DNA of 64,000 bases. Origin: an uncultured Flavobacteriales bacterium. Lineage in GTDB: Bacteria; Bacteroidota; Bacteroidia; Flavobacteriales_G; Salibacteraceae. Each line of letters begins with the position of its first letter. Positions within the stretch are counted from its first letter, which is position 1. The stretch is from assembly GCA_943788725.1 (NCBI GenBank), contig CALSRJ010000001.1:62001-126000 (forward strand), written 5' to 3'. The notes under the pieces were generated by a model, which saw only the letters and a list, made by a program, of their open reading frames with translations, searched no databases and was not told the origin of the DNA. The position numbers were made by a program, and so were the translations under genes. Positions 39,974-54,203 of this stretch are shown here, one piece after another.

Positions 39974-41637
39974 ATCTGACGGATTGGATAGTGCTGCTTT
40001 CAACGCTTGGCCTGATTGTGGGCTATGGTACATGGCGTACGCGAAAGCAAAACGATCTGAACGCCTACTTGAGAGGCGGTCAAGATTCCAACTGGGCCAC
40101 GGTCGGTCTGTCGGTCATGGCCACACAAGCTTCGGCGATTACCTTTTTATCCACCCCTGGCCAGGCATTTGAAAGTGGCATGGGTTTTATTCAATTCTAT
40201 TTCGGACTGCCGCTCGCGCTTGTCATTCTTTCGGTGACCTTCATTCCAATCTTCTATAAGCTCAATGTTTACACGGCTTATGAGTACCTCGAGCAGCGTT
40301 TTGATCTCAATACCCGTTTGCTGACCGCCTTTTTATTCCTGGTACAGCGCGGTCTTGCTGCGGGCATTACGATTTATGCACCCGCCATTGTACTCTCCAC
40401 TGTTCTTGGATGGGATCTCAATACGATGAATATCATGATTGGCCTGCTCGTAATCGTGTATACCGTGAGTGGGGGTACTAAAGCGGTGAGCATTACCCAG
40501 AAATGGCAAATGGCGGTAATCATGGGCGGTATGTTTTACGCATTCTACATGATCGTTGACCAACTGGCTCCGCATGTTTCCTTTCTCGAGGCGATAGAAG
40601 TAGCAGGCATCCATGGGAAGATGGAGATTGTCAATTTCGATGTAGATGTAAATGAACGATACACCATCTGGAGTGGCCTAACCGGTGGCCTCTTTCTTGC
40701 GCTGAGCTATTTCGGTACGGATCAAAGCCAAGTACAGCGCTATATATCTGGGAGCAATATCAGGCAGAGTCGCATGGGATTGATGTTCAATGCGGTGTTG
40801 AAGATCCCTATGCAATTCTTTATTCTCCTTACGGGGGTAATGGTATTTGTGTTCTATCAATACAACGCCCGACCGATCAGTTTCAATGAGCATGTAGTAG
40901 AGACCGTAATGTCTTCTGACAGGGCGGATGAGGGCGAGGCAATGCTAGCATCTTTCGAGGAAGTGCAAGAGCAAAAGACCGAATTGCTTCGGTCCGGTTT
41001 TTCTGGCAATGAAAATGCGCTTAGATCCCTTGAGCAAAAGCACGTAGCCCTGAATGAATCCTTTGGGGCACTTGCAGTGGAGATTGATCCAGAGGTGGAA
41101 ACGAAGGATTCAGATTATGTATTCATACGTTGGATTTTGGAAAACCTCCCGAACGGAGCGATCGGCCTTTTGTTGGCCGTCATCTTGAGCGCCGCTATGT
41201 CCTCGACAGCAGGAGAATTGAATGCTTTGGGTTCTACGACGATGAACGATTTTGTGAAACGCTTGCGAAAAGACCGTTCAGAGCAACCAGGGGATGTCTG
41301 GCGAAGTAAGCTCTCAACCGTAGCTTGGGGAATCCTTGCTATCATCTTTGCACTTTCTGCTCGGTTGGTCGACAACCTCATCGAATTGGTGAATATCCTA
41401 GGCTCGCTGTTTTATGGTACCATTCTGGGAATCTTCATTTGTGCATTCTACATCAAGCGCATTGGGAGCCGAGCCGTATTGATTGCCGCCGTAACGGCCG
41501 AGACGATAGTACTCACCATGTTCTTTACTACCGACATCGGGTTCCTCTGGTACAACGCCATTGGCTGCGGCGCAGTCGTTATTTTTGCTACGTTACTGAG
41601 TATGATGCCACGAGCGTCTGCCCAGCTGAAAGACTAA
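39970..41637 (+). CDS. Sodium:solute symporter family (SSS) transporter
   Basis: A 555-aa inner-membrane symporter with about 13-14 membrane segments. SSS features: VGLSVMATQASAITFLSTPGQAFESGMGFIQFYFGLP in TM1-2, YEYLEQRFD after TM2-3, LSYFGTDQSQVQRYISG and AVILSAAMSSTAGELNALGSTTMNDF. Residues about 310-375 form a hydrophilic, Glu-rich loop (EEVQEQKTELLRSG), an insertion larger than usual. Substrate unknown; the preceding deacetylase suggests a sugar or its product. The ATG overlaps the stop of the 44-aa gene. Confidence 0.92.
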   Translation: MNLTDWIVLLSTLGLIVGYGTWRTRKQNDLNAYLRGGQDSNWATVGLSVMATQASAITFLSTPGQAFESGMGFIQFYFGLPLALVILSVTFIPIFYKLNVYTAYEYLEQRFDLNTRLLTAFLFLVQRGLAAGITIYAPAIVLSTVLGWDLNTMNIMIGLLVIVYTVSGGTKAVSITQKWQMAVIMGGMFYAFYMIVDQLAPHVSFLEAIEVAGIHGKMEIVNFDVDVNERYTIWSGLTGGLFLALSYFGTDQSQVQRYISGSNIRQSRMGLMFNAVLKIPMQFFILLTGVMVFVFYQYNARPISFNEHVVETVMSSDRADEGEAMLASFEEVQEQKTELLRSGFSGNENALRSLEQKHVALNESFGALAVEIDPEVETKDSDYVFIRWILENLPNGAIGLLLAVILSAAMSSTAGELNALGSTTMNDFVKRLRKDRSEQPGDVWRSKLSTVAWGILAIIFALSARLVDNLIELVNILGSLFYGTILGIFICAFYIKRIGSRAVLIAAVTAETIVLTMFFTTDIGFLWYNAIGCGAVVIFATLLSMMPRASAQLKD

Positions 41638-41647
41638 CGTACCCAAG

Positions 41648-44393
41648 ATGATGGTAGGCCGATATTTTTCTCGTCATTTTTCGTTTTCGACGCTCCTTTG
41701 TTTTCTTATGCTCTTTTCTGGCGCTCAGTCTGCACAAGCCCAGGATGGCGAACGTCAATTGACCGGCGAAGTGTCTACTTCGAATTACCGAGCGCCCTTT
41801 GGCGATGACCTTGAGATTTTCAACTTAGGAACCGAGGTAAACTCAGAGTTCAGTGAATACAATCCGGTGATCAGCCCAGATGCAGAACTCATGTTGTTTA
41901 CCACTCGAAATGATACCGTGACAGGAGAGAAGGTGTACGATCAGGATAGGCAGCACTTTGAGGACATTCACATAGCTCGCGCCGTCAATGGAAGGTACAT
42001 AGCAGATGACAAGGTAGATCACCCTCTGACGACCTTCGTTTCAACCGTGAATTCTCGGAAGCATGAGGCCCTGTGTACATTCAAGAGGAGGCGGGAACGA
42101 TCGTTCTGTTTAAGGAAAACGATCTCTGGTTCAGTAAGTTAGAAGACGGCGTCTACGGCGAACCTGAACGTTACTCGAAAAACATCAATTTCAAGTATTA
42201 CCACAGGCATGCATCCCTTACGAAGGATGGAAATACGATGGTATTTACAGCGGAGGTGCTCGACAAGCAATTAAACCGATTCCACTTAGACATCTTTCGA
42301 ACAGAAAAGGATGCGGAAGGCGTTTGGTCCAAGCCTGTACGACTCCCAACCTTTATCAATTCGCCGTACAACGAAGACAGTCCTGAGATTTCGCCCGATG
42401 GAAAACTACTTTTCTTCAGCAGTGATAGGACGGATGGAGTAGGCGGATACGATGTCTACTACGTAGAGCTGTTTCGCAATGACAGCGTGTTGCATCGGCT
42501 AGCGGCGCCCATCAATAGTCCGGCGGACGACATCTACTTCAAAATGATCGAAGATAGTTCCGTGGCCTTCTTGTCTTCGAATCGCCTTGGAGGCTTTGGA
42601 AACATGGATATATACAAGCTAATCTTCCACAAGTTCGATACAGAATCCTGTGATCCAAGCAATCTCAAGCATACGCAGCTCGTCATGAACGGACCCGACA
42701 CCGTGCTGGTCAATTCGAAATTAGTGATGAATGCACGGGGAAGTGAAGTAGGAGGGTTGGCCCCGCGTACAACGCATTGGTACTTAAACGACAGCTTAGT
42801 AGGCATTACAGATCGCCTTGATATCCCAGCCGATAAGGAAGGGCAATTCGAGTTGCGCCTGTATGCTAGCGTGATTGATGAAAAGCGTCTGCTATTTCAA
42901 TCCTCATGCGCATCAAAGACCATCCATGTACTTCCTCAAGATGCTTACGCGAAGCATTCCCCAGTAGCGAAGATCTTAGAAGGTATTTCGGAAGATGTGA
43001 GCGAGCGTCAGTTCTTAGCAGCGCTTCCACTGCCGAGTGGAGGGCTGGGGTTGAAGAATGATGTGGTAACCACCTATATCAATGCTCCGGTGATTATACC
43101 AGTGATGAAGAACGATGAGACGGACGATGTTGGGGCCTTGAAGTTGCAAACCATTGGAAGGCCGCTGAACGGAAGCGCCGTAATGAAAACCTTGAGAAGG
43201 GAGAAATCCGCTATCAACCCGCAAAGGATTATGCCGGGCTAGACGCTTTCAAATATACCGTTAGAAGTCCCTATGGAAAGATAGGGACGGCTTGGGTCGG
43301 AGTGCGCGTATTGGACAACAGTCTTTTTAGCTTGAATAAGAAAATAAAGGATGATGTGGTCAGTACGCCAATGAATCAATCCATCAAGATCCATCTTTTT
43401 GAGAACGACACGATTCCAGAAGGTATGCACCTGAGGATATCGGGAACAACGCTACCGGTGAATGGCGTATTGAATGGAATAGACCTAAACAATGGCGTTG
43501 TGATCTACTCACCGGCCGAGGATTTCATAGGATCGGATATGTTTACATACGCCGTGAATTATCCAGAAGAAGGTGAGCAAAAGGCTTTTGTGAGGGTGCA
43601 TGTATTGGGGCCTAAAGGCGCAATGCCTTTGCGCACGCATCCTGACTTTGCCTCTACCATGGAAGGGAAACTCATATCCCTCAACGTCTTCCTAAACGAT
43701 GGATTCAACGAATCCGACGCGCCAAGGATCACTGCCATTTCGAAGACCAACAATGGTGCTTCACAGATCTATGACGCAGAAGAGGGTACAATTGTGTACG
43801 CACCCTTTAAGTCGTTTCATGGATACGAATACTTTACGTACACCGCTACTTTGAAAGATGGTTCCAAACACGTAGAAGCCATAAGCATTCACGTAGAACC
43901 TGAAGAACTGATCTTAGCCTCGGTGGATCAGGCAGAAGAAAACGTAGGTGACGCAGTCCAAAAGGCGCCATCCGAAATGTATAATATCACTGAGCTGGAC
44001 GAGGATAAGGTGAACGTGAAGGATAGGCCGGCAATCGCCTTGGAACAAGTCTATTTTGATTTTGACCAGGTCTATGTACGGGCAGATGCACGCCAGACCA
44101 TGGATAAAAACATTGCGCTGCTAAAGGAATACCCCAAAGCGGTCATTCAAGTGGTCAGTCATTGCGACTCAAGAGGACCGAAGGCGTATAACATGATCCT
44201 ATCGGCCAGAAGGGCTAAGTCTACGGTGGATTATCTCGTGCAACAAGGAATTGGAAAAGATCGCATAGTAGCTTCGGTTGGTGTGGGTGAAGACAATCTT
44301 GTCAACGATTGTGGTGATGGAGTGCCATGTTCAAAGGCAGATCATCAAATGAACCGACGGTCAGAACTTATCGTAGTAGGTTCTTTACGCTAG
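41648..44393 (+). pseudogene. PD40 / Ig-like / OmpA envelope protein gene with two frameshifts
   Basis: Three consecutive frames make one protein. Frame 1 (41648-~42070): signal peptide and start of a PD40 propeller (ISPDAELMLFTTRND). Frame 2 (~42070-43190): VYIQEEAGTIVLFKEN, PD40 motifs ISPDGKLLFFSSDRTDG, and an Ig-like part. Frame 3 (~43190-44393): EKGEIRYQPAKDYAGLDAF, Ig-like repeats, and an OmpA domain (YFDFDQVYVRADARQTMD ... HCDSRGP ... RRAKSTVDYL). Each shift is equivalent to one missing base, at a CCC run near 42069 and near AAAACC at about 43187. Real decay or assembly indels cannot be separated here. The intact product would be about 910 aa, a T9SS-associated, peptidoglycan-bound scaffold. 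Confidence 0.85.
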
Positions 44394-44747
44394 TCACCCT
44401 CCAACGCGTTTTGTCTTGTAGCCCTTGTCCTTCAGATAGGCCTCCACTTTTTCGCGTTGATCTCCCTGAATAATGATTTCTCCGTCTTTGGATGAGCCTC
44501 CCGTTCCGCAATGCGATTTAAGCGCTTTACCGAGCTCCTTCAAATTTTCTTCTGGCCCTTCAAAACCGCGCACAATTACCACGGCTTTTCCACCACGTCC
44601 TTTCGTTTCTCGATGAAGATGAAGCAGTTGGTCAGAAGGTGAAAGACTCTCTTCAGGTTCTTCGCTGTCGTTCGAAGAAAAATTCGGGTTGGTGCTGTAT
44701 ACAAAATCTCCAAATGACTGGAATGTGTTCTTTTTTTGCTTGGCCAT
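44394..44747 (-). CDS. SUI1/eIF1-like translation factor (YciH family)
   Basis: A 117-aa cytosolic protein. The C-terminal SUI1 domain (about 45-117) is clear: RGGKAVVIVRGFEGPEENLKELGKALKSHCGTGGSSKDGEIIIQGDQREKV split across conserved strands, ending KDKGYKTKRVGG. Homologous to eIF1 and bacterial YciH, which acts in start-site selection or stress translation control. The N-terminal ~40 residues are Ser/Asp/Glu rich. ATG at 44747; the frame upstream to the GTG at 44753 overlaps the lipid kinase stop. Same strand and adjacent to the kinase. Confidence 0.92.
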   Translation of the reverse strand: MAKQKKNTFQSFGDFVYSTNPNFSSNDSEEPEESLSPSDQLLHLHRETKGRGGKAVVIVRGFEGPEENLKELGKALKSHCGTGGSSKDGEIIIQGDQREKVEAYLKDKGYKTKRVGG

Positions 44748-44749
44748 GG

Positions 44750-45655
44750 TCACGGTATCAGTACATGCAATGATCTGGGACGAACTTCGAAGGTAAGGCT
44801 TGACGCTGTTGCTACTACTTCACCGTCTATGTGCAACTCAGCCATGTCGAGATTTTCAAGGGTAAATCGACCCCCAGTCAAGACTTCTACGAAAGGACTT
44901 TTGTGCAGCGTACTTAAAAACATCCGAGAAGCCAACGTCATCATGTTCACGGTGGGTACTTTCTTTACGATGATCAGTTCCAGTTGGCCATCATCATCGG
45001 CTCCCGTTGCGTTGACTACGGCATTGTTGCCCAGCTGGGAAGTATTTGCCAAGAGAACGGTCATTGCCTCTACGTTGATGGGAAGTGCGTCTTCAGGATA
45101 TATGCGGAAGCGGGTAGAGGTGTAGGATAGAGATGCATCCAGACTTAGTTTGATATAGTTGCTAAACCCGCGTTCATTTGCTTCATCAAAGAGGCGTGCT
45201 ACATGCCCATCAACTCCCACGCCAGCGAATCCTATCCCGGGTCTATCGTTGACCCTAAACGTGTCTACGGTTCGTCTCTTTCCAGCCAGCATTTGCTCCA
45301 GCGCAACCGAGGGTTTCATAGATATACCGAGATGTCTGGCGATGCCATTTCCAGAGCCCGTAGGAACGATGCCTAGGGCTGTGCTACTTCCGATCAATTG
45401 CGTTGCTACCTCCTGGACACTGCCGTCGCCCCCCACCGCTATTACTGCCTCGCGGCCTTCTTCACAAGCCCGTTTGGCGAGATCGATGGAGTGTTGAGCG
45501 GATTGACTGATTTCTATATCTAAACGCTCGGGGTCCCTGTATTGGTCAATGTTCTGGATGAAAGTTTTGCTTGATCCGGCACCAGAATGGGGGTTTACAA
45601 TGCATAAAAAAGGCCTCTTCGGGAGGCCTTTCGTATTTTCTAACATGGAAGGCAT
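44750..45655 (-). CDS. YegS/BmrU-type lipid (diacylglycerol-like) kinase
   Basis: About 298-301 aa. DAGK catalytic domain: LCIVNPHSGAGSS, the nucleotide-binding AVGGDGSVQEVATQLIGSSTALGIVPTGSGNGIARHLGI and the VDGHVARLF region; the C-terminal part holds ANTSQLGNNAVVNATGADDDGQLELIIV. It phosphorylates diacylglycerol or a related lipid on the cytoplasmic face. The start is 45655 or, three codons on, 45646. Codons about 8-16 are formed by the terminator hairpin at 45609-45631 that ends the upstream gene, an unusual overlap. Confidence 0.92.
   Translation of the reverse strand: MPSMLENTKGLPKRPFLCIVNPHSGAGSSKTFIQNIDQYRDPERLDIEISQSAQHSIDLAKRACEEGREAVIAVGGDGSVQEVATQLIGSSTALGIVPTGSGNGIARHLGISMKPSVALEQMLAGKRRTVDTFRVNDRPGIGFAGVGVDGHVARLFDEANERGFSNYIKLSLDASLSYTSTRFRIYPEDALPINVEAMTVLLANTSQLGNNAVVNATGADDDGQLELIIVKKVPTVNMMTLASRMFLSTLHKSPFVEVLTGGRFTLENLDMAELHIDGEVVATASSLTFEVRPRSLHVLIP
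45609..45631 (-). terminator. Terminator of the first EGF-like lipoprotein gene, inside the lipid kinase 5' end
   Basis: AAAGGCCTC (45609-45617), loop TTCGG, GAGGCCTTT (45623-45631); in the minus direction it is followed by a T-run at 45611-45606. Strong rho-independent form. It lies ~30 nt after the stop of the EGF-like gene at 45659. Confidence 0.85.
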
Positions 45656-45658
45656 AAC

Positions 45659-46285
45659 TTATTGCCGCGTACCTTCTAAGCGACAAGTGTAGGTCTTGTT
45701 GCCATTGATAATGGTATAATCAATGGTGATCGTAACATTGTTCGTATCAGCGATGTCGATGATGCCATTTCCGCTGATCGATCGCTCGTTCCCGTCAGGG
45801 TTCTGATTGAAGATCGAAAACTTCAGCGTAGACTTCTGTGCACCGGCTTGAATTTTAGAGAAGAATCCAACAATGGGAAACTGATTGGCATTGAATACGT
45901 TGGATAGTTCGATGCGGGTAGGATTCAGCAGGTTTCGGCTTACTTCCATGTAATGTCCCTGCAAGGTGTCTACTGGATCACAGAATTCGCTGATCTGGTA
46001 GGTTCCGATAAATTTAGCGCGGGTTTCTACTTCACAAAGCTCGCCTTCGTACCCTTCTTGACAAATACAATCTCCGTTCTCACACAGCCCAAAAGCACAC
46101 TCCACATCATTGAGCTCACAGAGGTCTAAGCTGTCGCACGTAGGACCTGAATATCCTTTGAGACAATCGCACTCACCATCGTTGCAGGTTCCACCGTTGC
46201 TGCAATCGTCATCACATTGGTTACACGCTACAGAAAAGACGGTTAGAAAGGCCACAAGTGTGGGTAGAAGGAGCTTCTTCATCAT
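45659..46285 (-). CDS. EGF-like domain lipoprotein, copy 1
   Basis: A 208-aa lipoprotein (lipobox FSVAC, Cys at 21). Two to three EGF-like modules at 22-90 with the usual CxNGGTCxxGxCxC and CxGYxGxxC spacing. A C-terminal beta-rich domain of about 120 residues begins FIGTYQISEFCDP and ends TYTCRLEGTRQ. It is paralogous to the next two genes in sequence and layout. EGF modules suggest protein-protein binding at the cell surface. No enzymatic residues seen. Confidence 0.85.
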   Translation of the reverse strand: MMKKLLLPTLVAFLTVFSVACNQCDDDCSNGGTCNDGECDCLKGYSGPTCDSLDLCELNDVECAFGLCENGDCICQEGYEGELCEVETRAKFIGTYQISEFCDPVDTLQGHYMEVSRNLLNPTRIELSNVFNANQFPIVGFFSKIQAGAQKSTLKFSIFNQNPDGNERSISGNGIIDIADTNNVTITIDYTIINGNKTYTCRLEGTRQ

Positions 46286-46444
46286 GAGCTTAATTTTGAG
46301 GCGTAAATATATGAAAATCGCTTGCGCGACTTCCTTCCTTGAGAATTAGACGTCGACGAAAATGAAATTAGTTGAATCCGAGGCATGCATTGTTCGTGGC
46401 TGAAATTTCATTTACTTTGTGAGGAATTTGAAATCCATCTAAAA

Positions 46445-46786
46445 ATGAAAAGAATCACACGAACTGCAATGTTTTTCTTGTTTACTGCCGCTGTATTGAC
46501 TGCATGTGGTGGTGGGGGAGAATCTCACGATGAAGGACATGACGACGCTGCTACGCATGTAGAAGCTGCCATGGACGATGCTGCTGAAGAAGCAGAAGAA
46601 GCAATGGAAGAAGTCTCAGAAGAGGTTGAAGCCACTGCTGAAGAAGTAATGGAAGAAACTGCTACTGAACTTACCCAGCCAATCGGCGATGCTAAGGTTA
46701 TTAAGCCAGGCGCAAAGACTGAAGCTGAGCCTGAAAAGGAGCTAACCAAGCCAATCGGCGATGCTAAGGTGATCAAGAAGAAGTAA
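46445..46786 (+). CDS. Small acidic lipoprotein with duplicated PIGDAKVIK motif
   Basis: A 113-aa lipoprotein (lipobox LTAC, Cys at 21, followed by GGGGE). The mature N-terminal part is His/Asp-rich (SHDEGHDDAATH) and then forms a long Glu/Ala helix (AEEAEEAMEEVSEEVEATAEE), probably a coiled coil. The C-terminus has LTQPIGDAKVIKPG and LTKPIGDAKVIKKK, a duplicated 12-residue motif. The lone opposite-strand gene in this stretch. Function unknown. The ATG at 46445 starts the signal peptide; earlier in-frame starts do not. Confidence 0.75.
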   Translation: MKRITRTAMFFLFTAAVLTACGGGGESHDEGHDDAATHVEAAMDDAAEEAEEAMEEVSEEVEATAEEVMEETATELTQPIGDAKVIKPGAKTEAEPEKELTKPIGDAKVIKKK

Positions 46787-46810
46787 TTCTCTCTTACTAT
46801 GAAATAAAAA

Positions 46811-46830
46811 AGCCCCGAGTAATCGGGGCT
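46811..46830. terminator. Bidirectional terminator
   Basis: AGCCCCGA (46811-46818), loop GTAA, TCGGGGCT (46823-46830), flanked by an A-run on the left and a T-run on the right. It serves the + strand lipoprotein gene ending at 46786 and the minus-strand EGF-like gene ending at 46859. Confidence 0.9.
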
Positions 46831-46858
46831 TTTTTTATGGGGTACATCAAGGAATGGA

Positions 46859-47434
46859 TCACTGACGCGTGAACGTAGCCGTGCAAGAAACCGTTCCAAT
46901 CGATGAGTCGTCCAAGGTGTAATCGATCACTAATTCAGTTCCATCGGCACTCAAAGTGCCTGAACCCGTCATGGTAAATCCATCCTCAGGATTCTGAGCA
47001 GGAATGGTGATTTTGTTCCCATCTACTTCGGCGATAATGGGATTCTCCCAATCGCCTCGATAGAGATAAGAGATCTCAATCTTGTACACATTGCCCGAAG
47101 TCGTCTTGATCGTTGAACCATAAGTGTAATTCTGATCGCACTCTTCGTCTACATCGTAGGCACCGTAAAACTTAACGCGTTCTTCGATCTTACAAGCGTC
47201 TCCTTCATAATAATCGTCACAGGCACAGGCTCCGTTTCCGAAGGTGCCGTTCACGCATTCCGTCTCGCAAAGGTCTCCGTAGAAGTTTTCAGGACAGTCG
47301 CATATGCCTTCTTCGTCGCATACTCCGCCGTTCTCGCAAACCACATCCTTGCATGGGTCTTTGCACGAGTTGAGAAAGAGAAGCCCTGTAAAAGCCATCA
47401 CTAGGCCGAGATAATTTAATGTTCGCATGTTCAT
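46859..47434 (-). CDS. EGF-like domain lipoprotein, copy 2
   Basis: A 191-aa lipoprotein (lipobox FLNSC). EGF-like modules (KDVVCENGGVCDEEGICDC, ENFYGDLCE, NGACACDDYYEGDAC) fill about 25-90. The C-terminal beta domain begins FYGAYDVDEECDQNYTYG and ends TVSCTATFTRQ, close to copy 1. ATG at 47434 or 47428 both give the signal peptide; upstream starts overlap copy 3. Same orientation as copy 3, with a 23-nt gap from its stop at 47458. Confidence 0.83.
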   Translation of the reverse strand: MNMRTLNYLGLVMAFTGLLFLNSCKDPCKDVVCENGGVCDEEGICDCPENFYGDLCETECVNGTFGNGACACDDYYEGDACKIEERVKFYGAYDVDEECDQNYTYGSTIKTTSGNVYKIEISYLYRGDWENPIIAEVDGNKITIPAQNPEDGFTMTGSGTLSADGTELVIDYTLDDSSIGTVSCTATFTRQ

Positions 47435-47457
47435 AGTATAACCGGTTAAGTGGAGCA

Positions 47458-48150
47458 TTATCGATTGAAGTTGAGTACGCACAAGATAGCGTTGCTGTCA
47501 AACACGCGCTTGATGGTAATGGTGAAATTCTCGCCATTTAACGAAGCAGGCGCGGTTGATTCAACCGAGAACTTGGTTCCATTCGCATCCTTTACATTCT
47601 GCTTAGGGATTTCAAGTTGGTTGTCATCGTTGATGATTCCAAATCCCTTCGTATCGCCCGCAGTCGTGAGGTTAGTTACACTGACGTAGTTGGCAGCGAA
47701 CGAACTATCTGGATCTGGATGAACCATTGCTGAAATGGTAGATGGGACATTCTGTCCATTGCAGTCAGAAGCCACTGAATAACTCGCGATCCAGTCAAGG
47801 CGCATTTCTGTACCGCAACTCTCTCCTGTGAAGCCTGGGTAACAAACACACTCGCCGCTCGTCTTCTTGTAAGTTCCCTCTTCGCAAAAAGTCTCACAGC
47901 TAGGACCGAAATAATCTTTTTCGCAATCACATTTTCCATCGTCACATACACCGCCGTTGAGGCAGTTAACATCATCAGTGATGCACTTGTCTTCAATTTG
48001 ACAGCTGTCGCCAGAAAATCCAGCCAAGCAAACACAGGTTCCATCTTCGCAGGTTCCATCGTTGCTGCATTCGACGTTCTTACACTTGTTGCAACTTGCC
48101 AACGCAACCACGAATGCAAGCGCTGTAAATAGGAATAGAAATCTTTTCAT
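47458..48150 (-). CDS. EGF-like domain lipoprotein, copy 3
   Basis: A 230-aa lipoprotein (lipobox ALASC, Cys at 20). Three EGF-like modules to about 110: NKCKNVECSNDGTCEDGTCVC, LNGGVCDDGKCDCEKDYFG and the CVCYPGFTGESC module. The C-terminal domain begins WIASYSVASDCNGQ and ends AILCVLNFNR, related to but more diverged than copies 1 and 2. It is the first gene of the 48150-to-46859 pair. Surface binding role inferred. Confidence 0.85.
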   Translation of the reverse strand: MKRFLFLFTALAFVVALASCNKCKNVECSNDGTCEDGTCVCLAGFSGDSCQIEDKCITDDVNCLNGGVCDDGKCDCEKDYFGPSCETFCEEGTYKKTSGECVCYPGFTGESCGTEMRLDWIASYSVASDCNGQNVPSTISAMVHPDPDSSFAANYVSVTNLTTAGDTKGFGIINDDNQLEIPKQNVKDANGTKFSVESTAPASLNGENFTITIKRVFDSNAILCVLNFNR

Positions 48151-48268
48151 GTTGAGATTTGGTTAGAGGTTTTGAGTAATTGGACGGGAATGTATCCAAA
48201 AGGCGGCATTGGTGAGAAGTCTTTTACGACGAATGGGCGAATTTCTTAGACAAGCGTGTTCGGTTAGC

Positions 48269-48276
48269 TACATTTG
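48269..48276 (+). promoter_or_regulatory. -7 box of the ketoacid dehydrogenase E1 gene
   Basis: TACATTTG, exact TAnnTTTG, 18 nt before the ATG at 48295; a TTA 20 nt upstream may stand for the -33 TTG. Confidence 0.45.
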
Positions 48277-48294
48277 ACTTCTCATTTTCACCGC

Positions 48295-50271
48295 ATGAAA
48301 TTCAATCGAGGTTCCCTTTCTGATGAAACCCTCATTACCATCTACCGAAAGCTGCTGTTACCGCGGCAAATAGAGGAGAAGATGCTCATCTATCTTCGAC
48401 AAGGCAAGATATCGAAATGGTTCAGCGGTTACGGTCAAGAGGCAATCAGTGTGGGGTGCGCCTACGGGCTCGATCCCGAAGCCTTTATGTTGACCATGCA
48501 TAGAAACCTAGGGGTTTTTACGACCCGGGATGTTCCTCTGGAAAGACTGTTTGCCCAATTCCAAGGAAAAGCTGAAGGGTTTACCCAAGGACGCGACAGA
48601 AGTTTTCATTTTGGATCCATCGAGCATCGCATTGTTGGAATGATCTCCCACCTTGGACCTCAACTGGGTATAGCGGATGGCATAGCGCTGGCCCAAAAGA
48701 TGGATAATACAGGTAAGCCTACCTTGGTATTTACCGGTGATGGTGGGGCCAGCGAAGGTGATTTTCACGAAGCATTGAATGTCGCGGCGGTTTGGGAACT
48801 ACCTGTCATCTTCGTGGTAGAGAACAATCAGTGGGGCCTGAGCACGCCGAGCAATGAGCAGTTCAAATGCAAGCAGTTCATAGACAAAGGCATCGGCTAC
48901 GGAATGGAGGCGATTCAGGTGGATGGCAACAACATTCTCGAGGTCATTGATACGGTGCAACAGCTCAATCTTTCTATGAAGGAAAACCCACGCCCTGTGC
49001 TGTTGGAGTGCGTCACCTTTAGAATGCGAGGACACGAGGAGGCCAGTGGAACCAAGTACTATCCTGAAGGTTTACAGGCCGAATGGGGGCAAAAGGATCC
49101 TTTGGAAACGTACGAGGCCTATCTGCTCGCTTCTGGGGTGTTGAAGGAAGAGCAAGCCAAGGCTTGGAAGGAAGCATTGAAAGTGTCGATTGGAAAGGCT
49201 TTTGAAACCGCGATGTCCTATCCAATTATTACCGCTGATCTTGACAAAGAAGTGCAAGATCTATTTGCGAAAGGCAACACTGATGCGGTGGCGCCGGAGG
49301 GGAATGCAAAAGACATGCGGTTTATAGATGCCATTGCGGATGGATTGAACGAGGCCATGAAGCAACACCCTAACCTAGTACTCATGGGGCAGGACATTGC
49401 CGACTATGGTGGGGTGTTCAAAGCCACAGAGGGTTTAATGGACCGCTATGGGAAAGACCGTGTTAGAAATACACCATTGTGTGAGTCAGCTATTCTCGGT
49501 GCGGGATTAGGACTGAGCATTGCGGGAAAGAAGTCAATGGTGGAAATGCAGTTTTCAGATTTCGTGACCAGCGGATTCAATCAGATCGTAAACAACCTCG
49601 CCAAGATCCACTGGCGTTGGGGGCAGCAAGCGGATGTTGTAGTGCGCATGCCTACCGGGGCAGGAGTGGGAGCGGGGCCCTTTCATTCCCAGTCTACCGA
49701 AGCTTGGTTCTTCCACACACCAGGGCTGAAGATTGTGTATCCCTCTACGCCTGAAGATGCCAAAGGACTCTTGCTCGCGGCATTCCAAGACCCCAATCCC
49801 GTCATGTTCTTCGAGCATAAGTTCTTGTACAGAAGCCTGACCGGATCAGTGCCTGAGGGGTATTACACTACCGAAATCGGCAAGGCCAAGCACGTACGAA
49901 GTGGTGAAGATGCGTCCATCATCACCTACGGCCTCGGGGTGCAATGGGCCATGAGGGTACAGGAAGAGTTTCCGGACCATTCGTTTGACATCATTGATTT
50001 GCGAACCTTAGCCCCGCTGGATATGGATGCAGTTGTTGAGTCGGTTCAACGCACGGGAAAAGTACTGGTGCTGCACGAAGATTCCTTGACCGGCGGAATA
50101 GGGGCGGAAATCGCTGCCCGCATCAACGAAGCGTGTTTTGAATTCCTAGACGCTCCAGTGGTACGATGCGCTAGTATTGACACACCAGTTCCTTTTGCAG
50201 CGGTTTTAGAAGAGCAGTTTCTCGCCATGAATAGGCTGGAGGAAAGGCTTCGACATCTCTTGGATTATTAA
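48295..50271 (+). CDS. Branched-chain 2-oxoacid dehydrogenase E1, alpha and beta fused
   Basis: A 658-aa thiamine-diphosphate enzyme that decarboxylates 2-oxoacids and passes the acyl group to lipoyl-E2. The alpha half (about 1-325) has the TPP motif GDGGASEGDFHEALN...VVENNQWG and the RGHEEASGTKYY phosphorylation-loop-like segment. The beta half (about 345-658) has MGQDIADYGGVFKATEGL, NTPLCESAILGAGLGLSIAGK and FHSQSTEAWFFHTPGLK. Alpha and beta are separate genes in most bacteria; the fusion is known in Bacteroidota. Sequence fits branched-chain type best. Start at the ATG 48295; upstream starts lack homology. Confidence 0.92.
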   Translation: MKFNRGSLSDETLITIYRKLLLPRQIEEKMLIYLRQGKISKWFSGYGQEAISVGCAYGLDPEAFMLTMHRNLGVFTTRDVPLERLFAQFQGKAEGFTQGRDRSFHFGSIEHRIVGMISHLGPQLGIADGIALAQKMDNTGKPTLVFTGDGGASEGDFHEALNVAAVWELPVIFVVENNQWGLSTPSNEQFKCKQFIDKGIGYGMEAIQVDGNNILEVIDTVQQLNLSMKENPRPVLLECVTFRMRGHEEASGTKYYPEGLQAEWGQKDPLETYEAYLLASGVLKEEQAKAWKEALKVSIGKAFETAMSYPIITADLDKEVQDLFAKGNTDAVAPEGNAKDMRFIDAIADGLNEAMKQHPNLVLMGQDIADYGGVFKATEGLMDRYGKDRVRNTPLCESAILGAGLGLSIAGKKSMVEMQFSDFVTSGFNQIVNNLAKIHWRWGQQADVVVRMPTGAGVGAGPFHSQSTEAWFFHTPGLKIVYPSTPEDAKGLLLAAFQDPNPVMFFEHKFLYRSLTGSVPEGYYTTEIGKAKHVRSGEDASIITYGLGVQWAMRVQEEFPDHSFDIIDLRTLAPLDMDAVVESVQRTGKVLVLHEDSLTGGIGAEIAARINEACFEFLDAPVVRCASIDTPVPFAAVLEEQFLAMNRLEERLRHLLDY

Positions 50272-50276
50272 CTTTG
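50269..50276 (+). promoter_or_regulatory. -7 box of the DUF4920 gene
   Basis: TAACTTTG, exact TAnnTTTG, overlapping the E1 stop codon and 14 nt before the first ATG at 50291. Confidence 0.45.
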
Positions 50277-50290
50277 CAACCCTAAGAAAA

Positions 50291-50908
50291 ATGAAAAAAA
50301 TGAAAAAAATGAAGAAAATATTATTTGTGTCCGCACTGATGTTGGCCTTAGTGTCTTGCCAAAACGGCGCTGAGAAATCAGGGGAAGAGAGCACCGATAC
50401 CACGGCTGTAGTCCAAGAGGAAGCGCCGACCTTGGCAGTAGCATACTTCGGGTCTGAGATCACCGATGAAGGGGCGATCGAAGTAGATGAGGCACCTGCT
50501 AAGCTGGGAGAAATGGATTCCGTCGATCTCAAAGTAGTGGGTAAAATTAATAAGGTTTGTCAAGTAAAAGGCTGCTGGATGACCATGGGCTATGGCGAAG
50601 GAGAGAGCATGCATGTTTCCTTTCGCGACTATGGCTTCTTCGTCCCAAAAAACATCGACGGCAAAGACGCGGTGATCGATGGTACGCTTTACATGGAAAC
50701 TACGAGCGTTGAGGACTTAAAGCACTTTGCTGAAGACGAAGGATTGTCTGAAGATGAAATTGCAATGATTACCGAGCCTGAAACGCGTTTGACGTTTGTA
50801 GCCGATGGCGTGATCGTTAAGGACTATACCGTTGAAGTAGGCTCAGCTGATGAGAACGAGCAGAACTTGGAGGAAGCAGAAGAGCACGATCACTCTGATC
50901 ACGACTAA
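50291..50908 (+). CDS. DUF4920 lipoprotein
   Basis: A 205-aa (or 199-aa) lipoprotein; lipobox ALVSC. The DUF4920 domain (about 50-185) has EITDEGAIEVDEAP, KVVGKINKVCQVKGCWMTM with CxxxGC, and SFRDYGFFVPKNIDGKDAVIDG. The C-terminus is His/Asp-rich (EEHDHSDHD), which may bind metal. The 5' end holds three in-frame starts in a tandem ATGAAAAAA repeat (50291, 50300, 50309); the third gives the most compact signal peptide. A terminator follows. Confidence 0.88.
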   Translation: MKKMKKMKKILFVSALMLALVSCQNGAEKSGEESTDTTAVVQEEAPTLAVAYFGSEITDEGAIEVDEAPAKLGEMDSVDLKVVGKINKVCQVKGCWMTMGYGEGESMHVSFRDYGFFVPKNIDGKDAVIDGTLYMETTSVEDLKHFAEDEGLSEDEIAMITEPETRLTFVADGVIVKDYTVEVGSADENEQNLEEAEEHDHSDHD

Positions 50909-50919
50909 CGAACCTCACA

Positions 50920-52215
50920 TCATTTAGCAGAAGCCTCGCCATCGCGGGGCTTTTGTTTTATGACCAAACGTAAGCTTTGGTCGTACGTAAAGTAGTTCCA
51001 CATCCATTCCAAGAAGATAAAGAGCCGGTTTTTCACCCCGAGGATCGACATCAAGTGAATGAATAACCAGAAAACCCAGGCCACGAATCCTTGAAATTTT
51101 ATGTAAGGGAGGTCGACGACCGCCTTGTTTCGTCCTATGGTAGCCATCGATCCAAGGTCGTTGTAACGAAAGGGCTTCATTTCTTTCCCCTTTAGCTCGT
51201 TCAGTAGATTGACGTAGAGTCGGTCGGCTTGTTGAATGGCTACTTGCGCTACCTGGGGATGGCCTTTGTCGAAATTGCCTTCCTCCATGATGGCCACATC
51301 GCCAATCACAAACACATTCTCTGAACCCAGCATCTTGTTCGTGCGATCCACCTTCACACGGCCGTTGGCTACGATTAAATTTTCAGGAATGCCTTCCAGT
51401 ATGTTTCCTTTAATGCCTGCGGCCCAGATGAGGCTGTTGGTGATGAATGTTCTCCCATCTTTCGTCTTCACCATATGGCCGTCGTAGGACTCTACCAGTG
51501 TATTTACCTCCACCTTGACACCCATTGACTTGAGAAAGTCTTCCGATCGTTTGGATGCAACCCCGCTCATGGGGCCCAATAAGCGGGGAGAAGCCTCGAT
51601 CAAGTGGATTTGCATGGCGCTAAAGTCCAATTCTGGATAGTCTTTGGGCAGGACGTAGGATCGCATTTCAGCCAGCGCGCCAGAAACCTCCGTGCCAGTG
51701 GGGCCACCTCCAACCACCACCACATTCATCAAGGCTGCTCGTTCCTCGACTGAATCTGCCACCAGCGCAGCTTCCATGCACTCGAGGATGCGATTGCGCA
51801 GGAAAAGCGACTCTTGTACCGACTTCATGGGTAGCGCGAAGGCTTCAATCTGTTTGTTGTTGAAATAATTGGTGTCTGCGCCGGTTGCAATGACCAACTT
51901 GTCATAAGAAACCGGTCCAATGCTGGTGTCAATGCTATTTGATGCCGTGTCAATGCGATTCACTTCCGCCACCCGGAAGTGAACGTTGGCGGCTTTATGA
52001 AAGACCTTTCGTATGGGAAACGCGATAGAACTGGGCGCCAAACCGGCGGTTGCTACTTGATAAAAGAGGGGTTGGAATTGATGGAAGTTGTTCTTGTCGA
52101 TCAACACCACCTGCACTGGCTTGTTCGCCAACTTTCGCGCTAGTCGAAGCCCAGCAAAGCCAGCGCCTAATATGACGACGCGGGGTGCTTGGCTCTTAGG
52201 TAATTGACTGGTCAT
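50920..52215 (-). CDS. ndh: Type II NADH:quinone oxidoreductase (NDH-2)
   Basis: A 431-aa membrane-attached FAD enzyme passing electrons from NADH to quinone without pumping. The FAD motif is VVILGAGFAGLRLARKL with NNFHQFQPLFYQVATAGLAPS. The NADH motif is VVVGGGPTGTEVSGALAEM. The C-terminal ~60 residues carry hydrophobic helices (FVAWVFWLFIHLMSILGV, RLFIFLEWMWNYF) for membrane contact. ATG at 52215 directly follows the terminator of the upstream gene; an earlier frame start at 52245 would lie in that hairpin. Confidence 0.95.
   Translation of the reverse strand: MTSQLPKSQAPRVVILGAGFAGLRLARKLANKPVQVVLIDKNNFHQFQPLFYQVATAGLAPSSIAFPIRKVFHKAANVHFRVAEVNRIDTASNSIDTSIGPVSYDKLVIATGADTNYFNNKQIEAFALPMKSVQESLFLRNRILECMEAALVADSVEERAALMNVVVVGGGPTGTEVSGALAEMRSYVLPKDYPELDFSAMQIHLIEASPRLLGPMSGVASKRSEDFLKSMGVKVEVNTLVESYDGHMVKTKDGRTFITNSLIWAAGIKGNILEGIPENLIVANGRVKVDRTNKMLGSENVFVIGDVAIMEEGNFDKGHPQVAQVAIQQADRLYVNLLNELKGKEMKPFRYNDLGSMATIGRNKAVVDLPYIKFQGFVAWVFWLFIHLMSILGVKNRLFIFLEWMWNYFTYDQSLRLVIKQKPRDGEASAK
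50931..50952. terminator. Terminator after the DUF4920 gene
   Basis: AAGCCTCGC (50931-50939), loop CATC, GCGGGGCTT (50944-50952) with one G-T pair, followed by TTGTTTT. It lies inside the last codons of the convergent NDH-2 gene. Confidence 0.8.
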
Positions 52216-52221
52216 AAAAAA

Positions 52222-52247
52222 AAATGCTTCCGCAAAGGGAAGCATTT
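52222..52247 (-). terminator. Terminator of the SprB-repeat T9SS gene
   Basis: AAATGCTTCC (52222-52231), loop GCAAAG, GGAAGCATTT (52238-52247), with an A9 run at 52216-52224 that gives the minus-strand U-tract. It abuts the ndh start codon at 52215. Confidence 0.9.
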
Positions 52248-52277
52248 CTTAAGGTCATTGACAAGGGTTAAAAGAAT

Positions 52278-54203
52278 TTATCGACTGATCACAATCGGCT
52301 TGACGATGAATCCATCATTCGTGCGAATCAACAGGTTGTAACGACCCGTTTCAAGGCCATCCAATGGAAGTACCGTTTCGCCATCTTTCCATGAGCGAAT
52401 CATACGCCCACTCATATCGAGCATGTCGAGTTGTTCGATGAATTCAAATTGACCGTCTATGTAGATTTCTCGGTTGGCTGGATTTGGGAACACCCGCACC
52501 CTTACCGATCCGATCTCTGCTACGCTCGTTACCGTGCCTACATCGTTCGTAATGACCTTTTCGCATCCGTTGGCATCAGTAATGGTTACAGAGTAAGGAC
52601 CACTGCAAAGGCCGAGGGCTTCATTGCCGTCGAGTCCACTGTCGTGCGACCACGTGTAGGTATAGGGTGAAGTTCCACCCGTCACTGTCAACGTGATCAT
52701 GCCGTCGCAGAATCCTTCGTTCGCTGAATCGCTGACGACTCCCACCGAAATACTGTCTGGTTCTGTAAGGTCAAAGGTTGCGATGTCCGTGCATCCCGCA
52801 CTGTCTGTCATGGTTACCGAGTAGGTGCCGGCAGTGAGGCCCGTAATCGTGCCCCCTGTAAATCCATTAGACCAATCGAACACCCATGGAATGGTACCCT
52901 GTCCTGCCGATACAGTAATGGAACCATTAGAGTCTCCATAACAACTCACATCGGTGAGGATGGTTGCGCTCTCGTTGATCTCGGCAGTCGTTTCTACGAT
53001 GGATTCGGAGAAGACATCTGTGCAACCAAGGAAGTCGGTAACGGTAACGCTGTAAGTGCCAGCGCTTAGGTTGGAGATGATTGCCGACGTGCTACCGGTA
53101 TTCCATGAGTAGGTGAAAGGACCGTTGCCCGTCAGCATGTTGACTTGCATGAATCCATTGGCTTGTCCACAATTCTCATCGCTTTTGGTAAATGTGCTGA
53201 TCAGGCCTGATCCGTTGGAGATTACTTCTCCTGAATCAATGGCCGTACAACCATTTATATCCGTAACGGTAACGGTATACACTCCTAAAAAAGCATTCGT
53301 AATCACACTATCCGTACTTCCCGTGCTCCAGAGGAAAGAGTAAGGAGACGTTCCGCCCGTTGGTTGAACGCTGATTTCTCCGTCGCCTGCAATGCAAGAG
53401 GTTCCGGTAATGGTAAAGGCCAACAGCATTGGGTCTGGAGAAAGTACAATGGCCTCCAATTCTTCTTCGTTGCCATTCACATCTTCGATGGTAACAGTGT
53501 ACGTACCTGAGCACAATCCGCTGATCGATGCTGTAGTGTCGCTGTTAGACCATGTGTAGCTGTAGGGGCCGCCTTCACCTCCGGTTACGTTTGAAAGGCT
53601 GATGGCGCCATCGCAATCGCCGTCACAAGAGACAAATGTAGTGTCTACACTTGCCGTGATGGGCTGAATGGGGTAAATGGTTGTGCTTCCAGTGTAGATA
53701 TAATCTCCTGAATTCCCAGAGGCTCCATTGGCCGCATTTCCGACGTAATAGAAGGTTATCGTATCCGCATATGTCGGTGCTGTCCAGCTGAAACTCCACG
53801 TTCCTGAAGAGTTGTAGGTAGAGTTTTGCCGGATATACGATCGACTAGAAATCGTTGTGGCAGCTGACCCTGTACTAGCTGTATAGGTACCTCCATTGGC
53901 ATTGTTGTCGCACAATACACCTGCCATGAAACCATATCGCGCAGGGCTTGGTGAGGATTGACTAACGTTCATTGAAACGGAGTAGGTGGCGCCAGGATAG
54001 TAATTGGCTGGAACGGACATGCTCACGGAACCAGATCCTGCATTCAGGGAGTAGGTATTGTGACAGCCGTTTTGACAAGTAGCACTGCTTAGCGGGCTTC
54101 CTGTTAGGTCTGAAGTGAATCCACCGCCGGAATAGCTGTTCAGGGCAATAGCCCCGATGATTGCGCACGCGGTAAAAGTAAGTCGGAGTAGCATTTTTTC
54201 CAT
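52278..54203 (-). CDS. Secreted SprB-repeat protein with choice-of-anchor V domain and type A T9SS domain
   Basis: A 641-aa exported protein. Signal peptide 1-22. The N-terminal domain (about 25-175) opens TGSPLSSATCQNGCHNTYS and has PGATYSVSMNVSQS, the choice-of-anchor V / Reeler-like pattern with a CxxxCH motif. Six SprB/PKD-type repeats follow (about 185-560), each with FLWSTGSTD-, SxLSAGTYSVTVTDxxGC-like motifs. The type A sorting domain at the C-terminus has VFPNPANREIYIDG and MLDMSGRMI. SprB repeats occur in gliding adhesins. Role in attachment or gliding is inferred. Confidence 0.87.
   Translation of the reverse strand: MEKMLLRLTFTACAIIGAIALNSYSGGGFTSDLTGSPLSSATCQNGCHNTYSLNAGSGSVSMSVPANYYPGATYSVSMNVSQSSPSPARYGFMAGVLCDNNANGGTYTASTGSAATTISSRSYIRQNSTYNSSGTWSFSWTAPTYADTITFYYVGNAANGASGNSGDYIYTGSTTIYPIQPITASVDTTFVSCDGDCDGAISLSNVTGGEGGPYSYTWSNSDTTASISGLCSGTYTVTIEDVNGNEEELEAIVLSPDPMLLAFTITGTSCIAGDGEISVQPTGGTSPYSFLWSTGSTDSVITNAFLGVYTVTVTDINGCTAIDSGEVISNGSGLISTFTKSDENCGQANGFMQVNMLTGNGPFTYSWNTGSTSAIISNLSAGTYSVTVTDFLGCTDVFSESIVETTAEINESATILTDVSCYGDSNGSITVSAGQGTIPWVFDWSNGFTGGTITGLTAGTYSVTMTDSAGCTDIATFDLTEPDSISVGVVSDSANEGFCDGMITLTVTGGTSPYTYTWSHDSGLDGNEALGLCSGPYSVTITDANGCEKVITNDVGTVTSVAEIGSVRVRVFPNPANREIYIDGQFEFIEQLDMLDMSGRMIRSWKDGETVLPLDGLETGRYNLLIRTNDGFIVKPIVISR

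Follow-up and report, generated by a model that had tools for sequence, protein, structure and literature searches.

What do three neighbouring lipoproteins that join epidermal growth factor (EGF) modules to a common C-terminal domain do, and which part of them has changed between species? The question is raised by a cluster of genes, here called A, B, and C, in a 64,000-nt stretch of DNA (the window) from a 2.9-Mb genome of the order Flavobacteriales. An original prediction for this DNA held them to be local duplicates with a C-terminal domain that it did not recognise and a surface-binding role, perhaps directed at prey, host, or self. Here, we consider it somewhat probable that all three are EGF-stalked lipoproteins and that, at locus B, the stalk has been kept and the head exchanged, which would make B a recognition protein.

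Anchor, stalk, and head of the three lipoproteins

Each protein consists of a lipobox, two to three EGF modules, and the common C-terminal domain, and inspection, Pfam, and sequence profiles bear out the original description in this respect. By inspection, the lipobox reads FSVA/C in A, FLNS/C in B, and ALAS/C in C (the slash precedes the lipidated cysteine), and a signal peptide with a lipobox cysteine is found in 35 proteins of the three loci from 12 genomes. Pfam reports teneurin-like EGF in A and C (E-values in Table 1) and EGF_2 in B (4.2e-5), and all three pass the curated EGF_2 (PF07974) cut-off of 22.1 bits, with 29.2 bits for A, 24.2 for B, and 40.4 for C. When compared with PF07974, for which an EGF module has six cysteines paired 1-3, 2-4, and 5-6, A and C contain two modules with six cysteines and B one. 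The first module of C is spaced C-x4-C-x5-C-x4-C-x-C-x8-C, other six-cysteine modules differing mainly in the first or third gap, and the model of the C stalk matches EGF entries of Notch/Delta, Jagged, and Del-1. The strong Pfam scores liken the stalks to teneurin- or tenascin-type EGF (PF23106, PF07974), but the final module of both B and C has just four cysteines. A calcium-binding type of EGF was considered and set aside, as the one simple pattern tried is absent from the EGF modules of all three proteins and its sole match in B, DVDEEC, lies in the barrel. EGF modules are uncommon in bacteria, as had been stated, and Pfam EGF rings occur in none of 14 control genomes.

The C-terminal domain, of about 110 residues, is homologous in the three proteins. 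Separate A, B, and C profiles of this domain were made from 10 orthologues each, the window's genome being excluded, and searched against 3003 sequences that included 3000 shuffled domains. The B profile finds the window's A with 45.5 bits (E 1.2e-12) and its C with 26.8 bits (E 7.7e-7), far above the best shuffle at 11.6 bits, which agrees with the claim of three paralogues; the window's B is recovered by the A profile (3.1e-7) and by the C profile (4.2e-5). The A and C profiles did not match each other directly in this search (4.8 bits from A to C and 9.4 bits from C to A, both under the best shuffle), and on the profile evidence their barrels are homologous with B as the link.

No family in Pfam or NCBIfam gives a clear score over the domain (the search did not extend to PHROGs or PADLOC), and a sequence search of the PDB with it gave no credible match. 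Weak matches are limited to Calycin_like (PF13944) in 5 of 64 members (best 3e-4) and Lipocalin_4 (PF13648) in 2 of 64 (best 0.0074), and a PF13944 scan of the window's genome found nothing. The domain, which the original prediction did not recognise, is predicted to have a fold of a known kind. AlphaFold2 run on the B domain with 64 sequences returned one short helix and eight strands (predicted local distance difference test score, pLDDT, 93.7; predicted template modelling score 0.85), and the domain is predicted to be a short helix followed by an eight-stranded calycin-like barrel. With the B barrel, Foldseek gave only five matches at E <= 0.001, four of them designed barrels; the best natural match was alpha-1-microglobulin (9.9e-4), BT2261 was also among the best, and siderocalins were among the matches. 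With VIA-align, the best natural structures were tied within one Z unit: the Bacteroides proteins BF2706 (3rwx; Z 12.0, root-mean-square deviation (rmsd) 2.1, 102 aligned) and BT_2261 (3h3i; Z 11.9, rmsd 2.5, 105 aligned), Yersinia Cap15 (7n34; Z 11.5, rmsd 2.2, 94 aligned), and a quinohemoprotein dehydrogenase subunit (Z 11.2). BACOVA_03430, BT2262 (5fq3; Z 10.5, rmsd 2.5, 101 aligned), and avidins (Z about 9-10) came next. That the C-terminal domains might be unrelated folds was checked for B and C. The mature C protein, modelled from nine C sequences alone, shows the same helix-plus-barrel fold at residues 96-211 and matches the same structures (3rwx with Z 10.9, rmsd 2.2, 105 aligned).

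The cysteine-containing last strand noted originally is also seen in the model, in which the cysteine at domain position 101 lies in strand 8 and a second conserved cysteine, at position 16, lies just past strand 1. Both are present in 55 of 64 members, neither in 9, and one only in none (Fisher p 3.6e-11, not corrected for relatedness). The two likely form a seam disulfide, because strands 1 and 8 should lie side by side once the barrel closes. Conservation in the barrel falls mainly on Gly, Tyr, Gln, Cys, Arg, and hydrophobic residues, and the loop between strands 3 and 4 is the most variable in length (standard deviation 3.26, versus 0-1.72 in the other six). If the strands alternate as a meander, this loop would lie at the end opposite both termini, the ends being assigned by counting and not from coordinates.

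As a design, A, B, and C would be outer-membrane lipoproteins made of an anchor, an EGF rod, and a calycin-like barrel head. The disulfide-rich rod would keep away from the membrane a small eight-stranded head with a predicted disulfide closure, both termini at the stalk end, and the strand 3-4 loop at the far end.

Stalks and heads compared between species

For the comparison between species, the proteins were split after the last EGF cysteine, and 12 genomes were compared, with one genome per species and without G016, in which C is cut by a contig end. A set of 11 genomes with all three genes (55 pairs) further leaves out G010, in which A is missing at a contig end. The gene in the C slot of G017 was counted as C despite its B-type stalk, and the short one-EGF B gene of the same genome was kept. 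Five congeneric pairs have B stalks at least 88% identical, and in four of the five, identity falls to 29-45% in the B barrels. Between G011 and G012, the B stalk is 96% and the B barrel 30% identical, against 88/76% for the stalk and barrel of A and 80/65% for those of C; the DNA of this pair is 92% identical over the B stalk, 49% over the B barrel, and 65-80% over the A and C segments. The B stalk and B barrel are 89% and 29% identical between G011 and G015 (A barrel 72%, C barrel 79%), 89% and 45% between G012 and G015 (A barrel 70%, C barrel 65%), and 88% and 31% between G019 and G021 (A barrel 68%, C barrel 69%).

The same separation is seen throughout the 11 genomes. Barrel identity is 45% or less in 22 of the 29 B pairs whose stalks are at least 65% identical, and in none of the 10 such A pairs or the 5 such C pairs, and the Spearman correlation of stalk with barrel identity is 0.08 for B, 0.62 for A, and 0.80 for C. 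A-barrel identity follows that of the C barrel (Mantel 0.71, p 0.0002), the A stalk (0.62), and the C stalk (0.69; both p below 0.001), versus 0.09 (p 0.31) for the B barrel. It is possible to explain this by fast neutral divergence, in which the cysteines hold the stalk constant and the barrel drifts with no part in recognition, and the lower synonymous divergence of B (see below) would suit a stalk that is unusually constrained or highly expressed. This explanation is improbable, as the barrels of A and C, with the same architecture, track their stalks, and as the B heads resemble barrels of other loci or genera and not diverged forms of one head; it is also disfavoured by the tree test of a single B clade that follows.

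In the barrel tree, the A barrels form one clade (support 100/100) and the B barrels are scattered. The B barrel of G011 stands beside seven C barrels (99/95), those of G017 and G021 group with a distant Bacteroidota protein (100/99), and those of G013, G019, and G020 group with two heads of G030, a member of another genus (95/98). A single clade of the 12 B heads is rejected by the approximately unbiased (AU) test (p 6.2e-30, or 5.0e-84 without the long G010 row), as are clades of the heads of G011, G012, and G015 (3.4e-4) and of G019, G020, and G021 (0.008), two sets picked after seeing the tree. The B stalks form one group (88/88, not starred) save that the C-slot gene of G017 falls inside it, and the stalks of G011, G012, and G015 group together (96/79, just under a star), as their A proteins do. 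The heads of G013, G019, and G020 are 61, 55, and 60% identical to the first tandem head of G030 and 64-71% identical to one another; with other congeners their identity does not exceed 53%, and with the heads of G011, G012, G021, and G010 it is 23-37%. In all 11 genomes compared for A, this protein is 38-44% identical to that of G030, which does not exceed its mean identity within the genus (42-53%).

These comparisons suggest that the heads of A, and for the most part those of C, pass down with the species, and that at locus B the stalk has been retained while other barrels of the family have several times taken the place of the head. The computation shows the architecture, homology, predicted fold, cysteine pairing in the alignment, synteny, and differing heads among species; that the proteins are exposed at the surface, that the head is the binding part, that exchange produced the differences, and that selection drove it are inferred. 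The B head would be under pressure to vary, because a near-constant rod carries a replaced head while neighbours of the same design keep theirs; likeliest, it binds a partner that differs between strains or over time, such as a protein of a phage or competitor, an adjacent cell, or a ligand that itself varies. A surface-binding role as originally proposed fits this picture, and its partner may be prey, host, or self. A stronger version, which we put forward only tentatively, is that locus B encodes a Bacteroidota recognition receptor whose alleles are kept diverse by selection, with a near-fixed EGF stalk and exchanged calycin-like heads, similar in plan to TraA of myxobacteria and built from unrelated parts. 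On such a view, head types would be common across genera while congeners differ, as at self-recognition or immune loci.

A constant N-terminal part with an exchanged C-terminal part also recalls a polymorphic toxin, in which a constant lipoprotein leader carries exchanged toxic C-termini, as in the SitA lipoproteins of myxobacteria. In such toxins, the exchanged parts usually have unrelated folds. The C-termini of B all fall in a single barrel family and share one pair of cysteines (in 10 genomes by alignment and in two more by eye), and a conserved convergent lipoprotein gene lies downstream of B (small unannotated ORFs in between were not examined), making a toxin very improbable here.

The main rival is the birth and death of tandem paralogues. 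In this account, several B-like copies in the ancestor shared almost the same stalk and differed in their barrels, and one copy survived in each lineage. No domain would have been exchanged, each barrel might simply have its own ordinary ligand, and loss from a tandem array could produce the same trees. In 10 of the 13 genomes of the genus, the window's included, a dehydrogenase gene, C, B, the convergent lipoprotein gene, and A follow one another on a single contig; in G018, the A portion of the cluster is on another contig, and G010 and G016 are interrupted by contig ends. In G030, from another genus of the same family, three tandem EGF-barrel genes with differing numbers of EGF modules replace the C-B pair (L057, 5269-7981), and A is also present. 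The duplication, which the original prediction called local, is therefore not new to the window's genome. The three tandem copies kept by G030 at the same locus speak for tandem paralogues, as does the B barrel of G011 among C barrels, where an old paralogue might fall, and G017 has two genes with B-type stalks, the one in its C slot being nearer to B. Against this, of the 11 genomes that have A, B, and C, 10 were found to carry one gene with a B-type stalk in the slot, and the B stalks form one group apart from the G017 gene, with those of G011, G012, and G015 grouping as their A proteins do. Such alike stalks combined with copy loss would therefore need repeated stalk conversion, itself an exchange between copies. 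Overall, we judge tandem birth and death to be rather unlikely.

Several observations weigh against head exchange and recognition at locus B, in addition to the tandem genes of G030 and G017. The head differences are seen between species only, from one genome each, and the named copies of these genomes are mostly metagenome assemblies. The closest pair, the window's genome and G014, has the same B head (stalk 91%, barrel 95%). The C barrels form no clean clade, the long G017 row falling outside and the B barrel of G011 inside, and the remaining four C models are of lower quality (mean pLDDT 56-76). A recent donor did not emerge, as the relatives set against the odd heads are 34-53% identical to them, although no systematic donor search was run. 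B-stalk identity tracks A-barrel identity weakly (Mantel 0.22, p 0.12), and the B stalk is therefore no clean species marker. The whole B gene has lower synonymous divergence than A and C in most of eight pairs compared, which may reflect recombination or strong constraint on the stalk too, or else expression level; a rough codon measure in the window's genome gave no clear difference for B. Finally, no accepted surface-export signal was demonstrated in the proteins. In PMC5080379, such lipoprotein export signals of Bacteroidota are given as C-x-K-(D/E)2 or SDDFE after the cysteine. Position +3 after the lipidated cysteine is acidic in B in 12 of 12 genomes (55% in A, 67% in C), but without the K-(D/E)2 form.

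Distribution and gene layout

Lipoproteins that combine EGF modules with the barrel are found under the record names Flavobacteriales, Cryomorphaceae, Chitinophagaceae, Sphingobacteriales, and Saprospiraceae, in a scan led by EGF patterns that under-counts barrels without EGF. Barrels without EGF are also present in the phylum sample, for example after a surface immunoglobulin (Ig)-like domain. A first barrel profile of three rows matches 4 of 296 genomes, and a 36-row profile matches 14 of 395 phylum genomes at E <= 0.001, the window's included in both; the four weakest of the 14 (4.7e-4 to 9.2e-4) are doubtful, two lying in frames of 1606 and 1902 residues. A three-row full-length profile matches 24 of 35 family genomes, a figure that includes the EGF part and is not a barrel count. 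A viral origin was considered and rejected, as no relative was found in viral contigs scanned with the barrel alignment of the three proteins and the full-length B alignment. The nearest relative is a metagenome-assembled genome named 'Flavobacteriales bacterium', 94% identical in B.

The window's genome may contain further members. A one-EGF lipoprotein at C1:249.7k is matched by an iterated profile (8.8e-13) and not by the 64-row profile at E <= 1, and another at C1:529k is marginal (0.0036, iterated profile). A lipoprotein at C1:463.6k (L163, 1270-1845) matches the 64-row barrel profile at 1.8e-7 and has its barrel behind a Cys-rich CTDCNATNY...DASC motif in place of EGF modules; with this N-terminus, the barrel appears to be a mobile module. 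The analysis gives a predicted fold and disulfide for an unnamed domain that occurs in several Bacteroidota orders and also behind other N-terminal modules, such as an Ig-like one.

The features of the cluster are collected in Table 1. Its limits run exactly from the end of the A stop codon (45659) to the first base of C (48150). An in-frame ATG at 47434, two codons upstream, is a possible alternative start of B. Only 29 bases separate C from B on the same strand, and because of this closeness the two may share one transcript. The Glu/Ala-rich convergent lipoprotein gene between A and B is kept there in relatives, as judged by tblastn synteny. Its product has a C-terminus in which the motif LT[QK]PIGDAKVIK is repeated twice, and about 200 bases overlapping the gene are 90-100% identical between G011 and G012, adjoining segments being mostly lower. 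Between this gene and B, a palindromic hairpin is likely a two-way terminator for the two convergent genes; it is absent from the list of a promoter and terminator scan, which found 7 and 2 against 5.7 and 3.5 expected from shuffles.

Table 1. Coordinates of the EGF lipoprotein cluster and its parts within the window
Feature	Position	Strand	Basis
Gene A, EGF lipoprotein, 208 aa	45659..46285	-	Open reading frame (ORF); Pfam EGF_Teneurin 1.9e-10
A barrel head	45662..46027	-	Homology; tree (one clade in genus)
A EGF stalk, two six-Cys modules	46034..46216	-	Cys positions; Pfam
Convergent Glu/Ala-rich lipoprotein gene	46385..46786	+	ORF; tblastn synteny; likely start ATG 46445
Palindromic hairpin with flanking A and T runs	46806..46836	.	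Inspection
Gene B, EGF lipoprotein, 189 aa	46859..47428	-	ORF
B calycin-like barrel head (predicted)	46862..47185	-	AlphaFold2 pLDDT 93.7; fold comparison; varies between species
B barrel Cys182 (domain position 101)	46883..46885	-	Predicted disulfide partner
B barrel Cys97 (domain position 16)	47138..47140	-	Predicted disulfide partner
B EGF stalk, one six-Cys and one four-Cys module	47192..47353	-	Cys positions; Pfam; conserved between species
B lipidated Cys22	47363..47365	-	Lipobox FLNS/C, inspection
Gene C, EGF lipoprotein, 230 aa	47458..48150	-	ORF; Pfam EGF_Teneurin 1.6e-13
C calycin-like barrel head (predicted)	47461..47808	-	Homology; model; fold comparison
C EGF stalk, two six-Cys and one four-Cys module	47815..48084	-	Cys positions; Pfam; model
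C lipidated Cys20	48091..48093	-	Lipobox ALAS/C, inspection

By inspection, A lies directly upstream of a diacylglycerol-kinase-like gene. A terminator-like hairpin at 45609-45631, just past the A stop and within the first codons of this gene, was also seen by inspection (the scan lists a hairpin there on the plus strand) and could attenuate read-through from A. Further away, a plus-strand gene at 41648-44393 with propeller-like and OmpA-type parts, recognised by inspection, is split into three ORFs, of which the first and second overlap and are read in different frames; either the assembly contains a frameshift here or the gene may be broken. On the minus strand, 52278-54203 encodes a protein with SprB repeats (Pfam SprB 6.2e-34) and a C-terminal sorting domain for type IX secretion (Por_Secre_tail 7.4e-12).

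Comparison with known systems

A literature search, which covered few subscription journals, found no paper on EGF-calycin lipoproteins. By fold, the predicted eight-stranded barrel is shared with the cyclic dinucleotide receptor Cap15 (7n34), alpha-1-microglobulin, siderocalins, and avidins. BT_2261 and BT2262 of the Bacteroides thetaiotaomicron SusCD complex BT2261-2264 (PDB 3h3i, 5fq3, 5fq6, 5fq7, 5fq8) are likewise from Bacteroidota and have the same barrel fold (Z 10.2-11.9) at 12-18% identity, BT2262 being a lipoprotein according to its PDB entry title. Alternatively, A, B, and C may be accessory nutrient-binding surface lipoproteins of this type, in which the barrel captures a peptide, lipid, siderophore, or vitamin and the heads follow diet. 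The presence of BT_2261, BT2262, BF2706, and BACOVA_03430 among the nearest natural solved folds, and of siderocalins among the Foldseek matches, is consistent with such a role. We nevertheless regard it as doubtful: the only two SusD matches of the genome are on contig C5 and A, B, and C on C1, no SusC or SusD was recognised by eye among the ORFs at 40000-54000, and the conserved barrel positions in the alignment have no evident pocket motif, the pocket itself not having been examined.

For B as a recognition protein, the closest parallel in plan is TraA of myxobacteria, a polymorphic cell-surface receptor for which a stalk and a variable head are documented. According to PMC6372800, a variable domain on Cys-rich repeats decides partner choice in TraA, for which self-recognition has been shown; the more conserved repeats are proposed to act as a stalk, and the authors suspect allele shuffling. 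At locus B, a head likewise appears to evolve apart from a conserved Cys-rich stalk, as seen between species only. The parts are different. The TraA head is N-terminal and a distant homologue of PA14, with a C-terminal MYXO-CTERM tag and TraB as partner, whereas the locus B head is a predicted C-terminal calycin-like barrel behind an N-terminal lipid anchor. PA14 matches occur in only 2 of 64 barrel members (best E 0.009), and B as a TraA was rejected, since the head is modelled as a calycin-like barrel and not as PA14. If the selected-diversity reading is true, locus B would represent a separate Flavobacteriales case of a polymorphic receptor with a stalk and a variable head, assembled from EGF modules and calycin-like barrels, and it would be a tractable place to ask whether phages, competitors, kin, or ligands drive the exchange.

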